Shown here piece after piece: positions 1,964 to 4,596 of a stretch of DNA of 64,000 bases. The stretch is from Streptomyces niger (GTDB lineage: Bacteria; Actinomycetota; Actinomycetes; Streptomycetales; Streptomycetaceae): assembly GCF_000718305.1 (NCBI RefSeq), contig NZ_JOFQ01000004.1:62001-126000 (forward strand). The letters run 5' to 3'. The stretch's first letter is position 1. Every line of letters starts with the position of its first letter. The notes beneath the pieces are model-generated. The model had not been told where the DNA came from, did no database searches, and saw only the letters and a list, made by a program, of their open reading frames with translations. Position numbers and translations under genes: made by a program.

Positions 1964-2004
1964 CTGTCTCTTATACACATCTGACGCTGCCGACGAAGGC
2001 TTAG
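1964..2004. other. Illumina Nextera i5 adapter and index (non-biological sequence)
   Basis: Bases 1964-1982 read CTGTCTCTTATACACATCT, the reverse complement of the Tn5 mosaic end used in Nextera kits. Bases 1983-1996 read GACGCTGCCGACGA, completing the reverse complement of the Nextera read-1 transposase adapter. Bases 1997-2004 read AGGCTTAG, the reverse complement of the i5 index CTAAGCCT (N/S508). Translation across it gives MCIRDS and [10 protein letters not shown], peptide tails known from adapter-contaminated database proteins. This is an assembly artefact that joins two contig ends. Confidence 0.98.

Positions 2005-4596
<2,592 letters not shown>

Follow-up and report, generated by a model that had tools for sequence, protein, structure and literature searches.

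Does the 41-base sequence at which the PEP carboxylase gene (ppc) of the Streptomyces niger assembly breaks off belong to the chromosome, or was it left there by library preparation? The window, by which we mean the whole 64,000-nucleotide stretch analyzed, is part of contig C4 in a genome of 108 contigs and 8.49 Mb. We conclude, with a probability of about 99%, that positions 1964–2004 are a Nextera library-adapter artefact left in the assembly, and thus a data error rather than biology. The artefact is of an ordinary and well-understood kind, so that what follows is a correction rather than a discovery.

Identity of the 41 bases

The elements at the join, in the order in which they are met on the forward strand, are as follows (literature sequences are from excerpts of the papers cited).

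1964–1982, + strand: Tn5 mosaic end (the Nextera transposase end), 19 bp, reverse complement of the library orientation; an exact match, with the trimming sequence as in PMC3906532
1983–1996, + strand: part of the Nextera read-1 adapter, reverse complement (TCGTCGGCAGCGTC), from comparison with the S508 primer of PMC7757419
1997–2004, + strand: i5 index S508, reverse complement (CTAAGCCT), the index being as in PMC7757419 and PMC7589761
2005, no strand: junction base G, common to the continuation of the adapter and the ppc flank; the arm match is 42 bases long and reaches this base

The letters read CTGTCTCTTATACACATCT (mosaic end), GACGCTGCCGACGA (read-1 adapter, reverse complement), and AGGCTTAG (S508, reverse complement). 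The 41-mer matches 1964–2004 without a mismatch, and this is its sole match in the window even when up to three mismatches are allowed. The match to the S508 arm as a whole is one base longer (1964–2005), the G at 2005 belonging also to the ppc flank. A preliminary description, made from the letters of the window, had read 1964–1996 as the reverse complement of the Nextera read-1 transposase adapter and 1997–2004 as that of index S508, and both identifications hold exactly: the 33-base read-2 trimming sequence in the excerpted PMC3906532 is identical to 1964–1996, the S508 primer as printed in the available part of PMC7757419 matches the remainder of the 41-mer, and CTAAGCCT is given as S508 in the corresponding part of PMC7589761 too. 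The order of the parts is that of library contamination, with an exact mosaic end followed by read-1 or read-2 adapter and then by a catalogued 8-base index (S508 in the window, N706 on other contigs). A chance match was considered and ruled out, given that none of 100 shuffled sequences contained the 41-mer (0/100) and that the 12-base prefix of the mosaic end has nine matches in the strain's own genome versus none for the reversed control.

Adapter copies in this assembly and in others

The genome holds eight exact copies of the mosaic end, none with one or two mismatches, and the reversed control gives zero. As expected of contamination, the copies are concentrated at contig ends: six of the eight lie 16–47 bases from a contig end and continue as adapter up to it, and the two interior copies are the one in the window and another on contig C8 at 394214. 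The S508 arm accounts for four copies (matches of 36, 42, 54, and 61 bases) and the N706 arm for the other four (35, 56, 58, and 66 bases); the longest N706 match, at the high end of C45, comprises the whole primer complement, including the mosaic end. The nine matches of the 12-base prefix are these eight copies plus a ninth that is truncated to 14 bases at the start of C45, which thus has adapter on both ends. The index is complete in six of the eight copies (L004 stops after one and L005 after three of its 8 bases), and over the bases that each contains, all eight match S508 or N706. Because every copy in the genome fits this one index pair, a single dual-indexed library accounts for them. 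The adapter reading is the firmer for these seven further exact mosaic ends, for the six of eight that run off contig ends, and for the single S508/N706 pair. The tails on contig ends (L002, L004, L005, L006, L007, L008, and L294, on contigs C7, C10, C25, C32, C44, and C45) should be trimmed.

The hyperactive Tn5 transposase recognizes the mosaic end, and it could for that reason be asked whether a real Tn5-type insertion, or an engineered tag, sits in the chromosome of the strain. However, no transposon body is present; the 41 bases are a fragment of a single library arm, sample index included, while the other arm, N706, is found on other contig ends of the same genome. In addition, 60 ppc codons are gone, a loss that a simple insertion would not cause. 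With both library arms and their indices in the genome, we reject a natural or engineered insertion, whose probability we regard as negligible.

The same sequence is not peculiar to this genome. Exact mosaic ends occur in 7 of the 100 genomes searched (its own included), and at seven loci in relatives, out of 18 matches there, the distance from the copy to the end of its contig is 0 to 36 bases, with last bases that depart from the adapter in two of them (L044 and L050). A scan of public genome contigs for the 41-mer returned at least 120 stretches, most of them from a few metagenome runs, so that they should not be counted as 120 independent cases. All 122 matches in these stretches fall within 36 bases of the stretch end toward which the adapter runs. 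Where any base follows the 41-mer, the adapter continues over the next bases, up to eight, in 113 of 117 matches; the continuation differs from it in the other four (L064, L100, L127, and L157). Among the matches listed, the taxa include Clostridia, Eubacterium, Lactobacillus, Acetobacteraceae, Planctomycetaceae, Methylocystaceae, Beta- and Deltaproteobacteria, and Streptomyces violaceorubidus. The last of these, strain NRRL B-16381, has the identical 41-mer, including S508, on contig NZ_JODM01000045.1 (L129). An exact sequence that is common to unrelated taxa and sited at contig ends points to a reagent, not a gene.

Viral contigs were scanned for the 33-mer, again with at least 120 stretches returned. 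Among the matches listed, 119 of 120 lie within 120 bases of the stretch end, which is not always a contig end (L233 and L242 are cut within their contigs). The one interior match (L172) places the 33-base Nextera sequence 2153 bases from the end, and is probably another bridged join.

Adapter read-through in Nextera and Nextera XT libraries is described in the excerpted part of PMC3906532, where the adapter arises with short inserts and at read ends, and where it is stated that adapter at read ends can affect de novo assembly. That account concerns reads, however, whereas here the adapter persists into a contig of the assembly and sits in its interior. The case likewise differs from the public assemblies, in which all 122 matches listed are near a stretch end, in that the adapter has been bridged to another contig. 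Given that 7 of 100 genomes contain exact mosaic ends, screening assemblies for the 19-bp mosaic end, in contig interiors as well as at contig ends, costs little and is worth doing.

Gene calls across the join

The genes and reading frames affected, together with their neighbors, are these.

49–642, + strand: rplY, ribosomal protein L25, a neighboring gene (PF01386 and PF14693)
762–1355, + strand: pth, peptidyl-tRNA hydrolase, used as a synteny anchor (PF01195)
1437–1958, + strand: intact 173-aa membrane-protein-like ORF, the convergent neighbor of ppc in relatives (ORF reading; relative loci)
1789–2004, + strand: spurious ORF with a 10-residue artefactual end, its stop created by the index (ORF reading)
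1948–2004, − strand: artefactual 18-residue end of the ppc frame with its stop, translated across the adapter and on into the other flank (ORF reading)
2005–4596, − strand: authentic stretch of ppc (PEP carboxylase), 864 codons counted from a mechanical GTG start, with the last 60 residues and the stop missing (PF00311; longer ppc of relatives)

The ppc frame is genuine to position 2005, where the last true residues are ESNP, and its 18-residue tail is a translation of adapter sequence followed by 16 bases of the flank beyond it. The match of the window protein to PF00311 stops at profile position 863 of 919, and even its final eight matched residues lie in the artefactual tail; the ppc of one relative (L010) covers the profile to 919 of 919. 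This shortfall in C-terminal coverage applies to the assembled sequence and not necessarily to the organism. For comparison we used the 29 best-scoring relative loci (57 of 60 relatives matched at E ≤ 0.001, a few of them weakly). All 28 loci with a visible stop have 60 residues past the point of the join; the 29th (L013) leaves its contig before the ppc stop. The truncation claimed in the preliminary description thus stands, but the loss is of 60 residues and the stop rather than of about 50 residues. Its warning that calls crossing the join would acquire artefactual tails, such as MCIRDS, is borne out for the ppc frame and for the + strand ORF at 1789–2004. A literature search for the artefact peptide strings returned no paper. 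The 173-aa ORF is complete, ending five bases ahead of the adapter, and a profile search found no Pfam family for it.

One could still suppose that the strain really has a shorter ppc and that the adapter does no more than mark a contig end. In keeping with this, a protein query with the 60-residue ppc tail of the relative G036 did not find the tail elsewhere in the assembly at E values up to 1 (the same query was positive in five of five relatives, G036 itself among them). The ppc tail and intergenic DNA of G036, run as a DNA query without a positive control, yielded nothing in the assembly beyond a pair of short and weak matches (33 and 23 bases). However, an assembly gap itself predicts that the sequence will be missing, the frame breaks off precisely at the adapter boundary, and no relative with a visible stop lacks the 60 residues. 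We consider a real shortening very improbable; most likely, the real ppc of the organism is intact.

On contig C8, the second interior copy consists of 61 bases of the S508 arm (L003:1501–1561, corresponding to C8:394214–394274). It cuts off parB (PF02195 and PF17762 matched), whose frame gains an artefactual tail containing a 14-residue string. What we take to be thioredoxin-like and acetyltransferase-like ORFs flank this join on one side, with what we take to be a ParA-like ORF across from them.

Annotation should drop the truncated PEP carboxylase and the spurious ORFs called across the join, and a shortened ppc or parB should not be argued from this assembly. Separately, G018, a relative of the same genus that is listed as 100% complete, has only weak matches to the 3′ part of ppc (best E 4.6e-5), unlike the other 35 same-genus relatives; ppc may be absent from it or very different.

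The flanks, the gap, and how the join may have arisen

We propose that short Nextera fragments would have been read through into the far adapter and that the reads would have been incompletely trimmed. The assembler then extended contig ends into adapter, as the six terminal copies show. Here and on C8, a scaffolding or gap-closing step would have attached a contig end with an adapter tail to the following contig, and in the window 41 adapter bases would thus have replaced the last part of ppc and the intergenic DNA. The window is without any N to mark a scaffold gap. The join has a single shared base, so a simple overlap of contig ends is not evident.

A possible cause of the break, and it is only that, is reduced coverage at a terminator hairpin lying between the two convergent genes. 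We folded the intergenic sequence of eight relatives, picked from the 23 with measured spacing (see below), against 100 mononucleotide shuffles each. The fold is below all 100 shuffles in three (L016, −59.3 kcal/mol; L019, −77.7 kcal/mol; L028, −54.4 kcal/mol) and not below all of them in five (L010, L011, L015, L022, and L027). In another assembly, the contig likewise breaks inside the last 60 ppc codons (L013, on G033:C124), which suggests that this spot may be hard to assemble in general.

Are the two flanks true neighbors? Judged by gene order in relatives, they probably are, as had been proposed at the outset: pth, the small membrane-protein gene, or both are found no more than about 1.5 kb from the 3′ end of ppc in 27 of the 29 relative loci, and at 23 of these 29 the small gene converges on ppc with a spacing that can be measured. 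The alternative is a chimeric join, in which the adapter is artefactual and the flanks come from different places; the two loci with neither gene nearby (L013, which meets its contig end, and L021) would allow for it, but the 27 and the 23 weigh against it, and we consider it unlikely. At L021, where the small gene was not found, the ORF adjoining ppc is presumably an IS30-like transposase.

If the flanks are indeed neighbors, the relatives also bear on how much is missing, a number called unknown in the preliminary description and now bounded. Spacing was taken from the stop of the small gene to the base equivalent to 2005, and the 23 values fall into two classes, of 212–337 bases in 14 relatives and 863–1218 bases in nine. 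Subtracting the five bases that are present before the adapter, some 207 to 1213 bases are probably missing at the join. The strain may belong to either the compact or the long class. The best-scoring ppc relative, G036, whose small protein is also the closest to that of the strain, is of the long class (ppc DNA 90% identical over 595 bases, small protein 67%, spacing 863 bases), and its interval holds a 199-aa ORF for which no Pfam family was matched. G029 matches in ppc DNA at 91% over 566 bases, with a small protein at 49% and a spacing of 217 bases.

Different ORFs occupy the interval between the small gene and ppc among relatives (L010, L012, L017, L021, and L023), and those in L012, L017, and L023 are secreted-looking, as judged by eye. 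In Streptomyces, this interval could be a variable slot. Because the spacing is long in 9 of 23 relatives, the gap may hide a small gene, and we suggest tentatively, at somewhat less than even odds, that the interval is such a slot and that the strain may carry an extra gene there that the assembly does not let us see.
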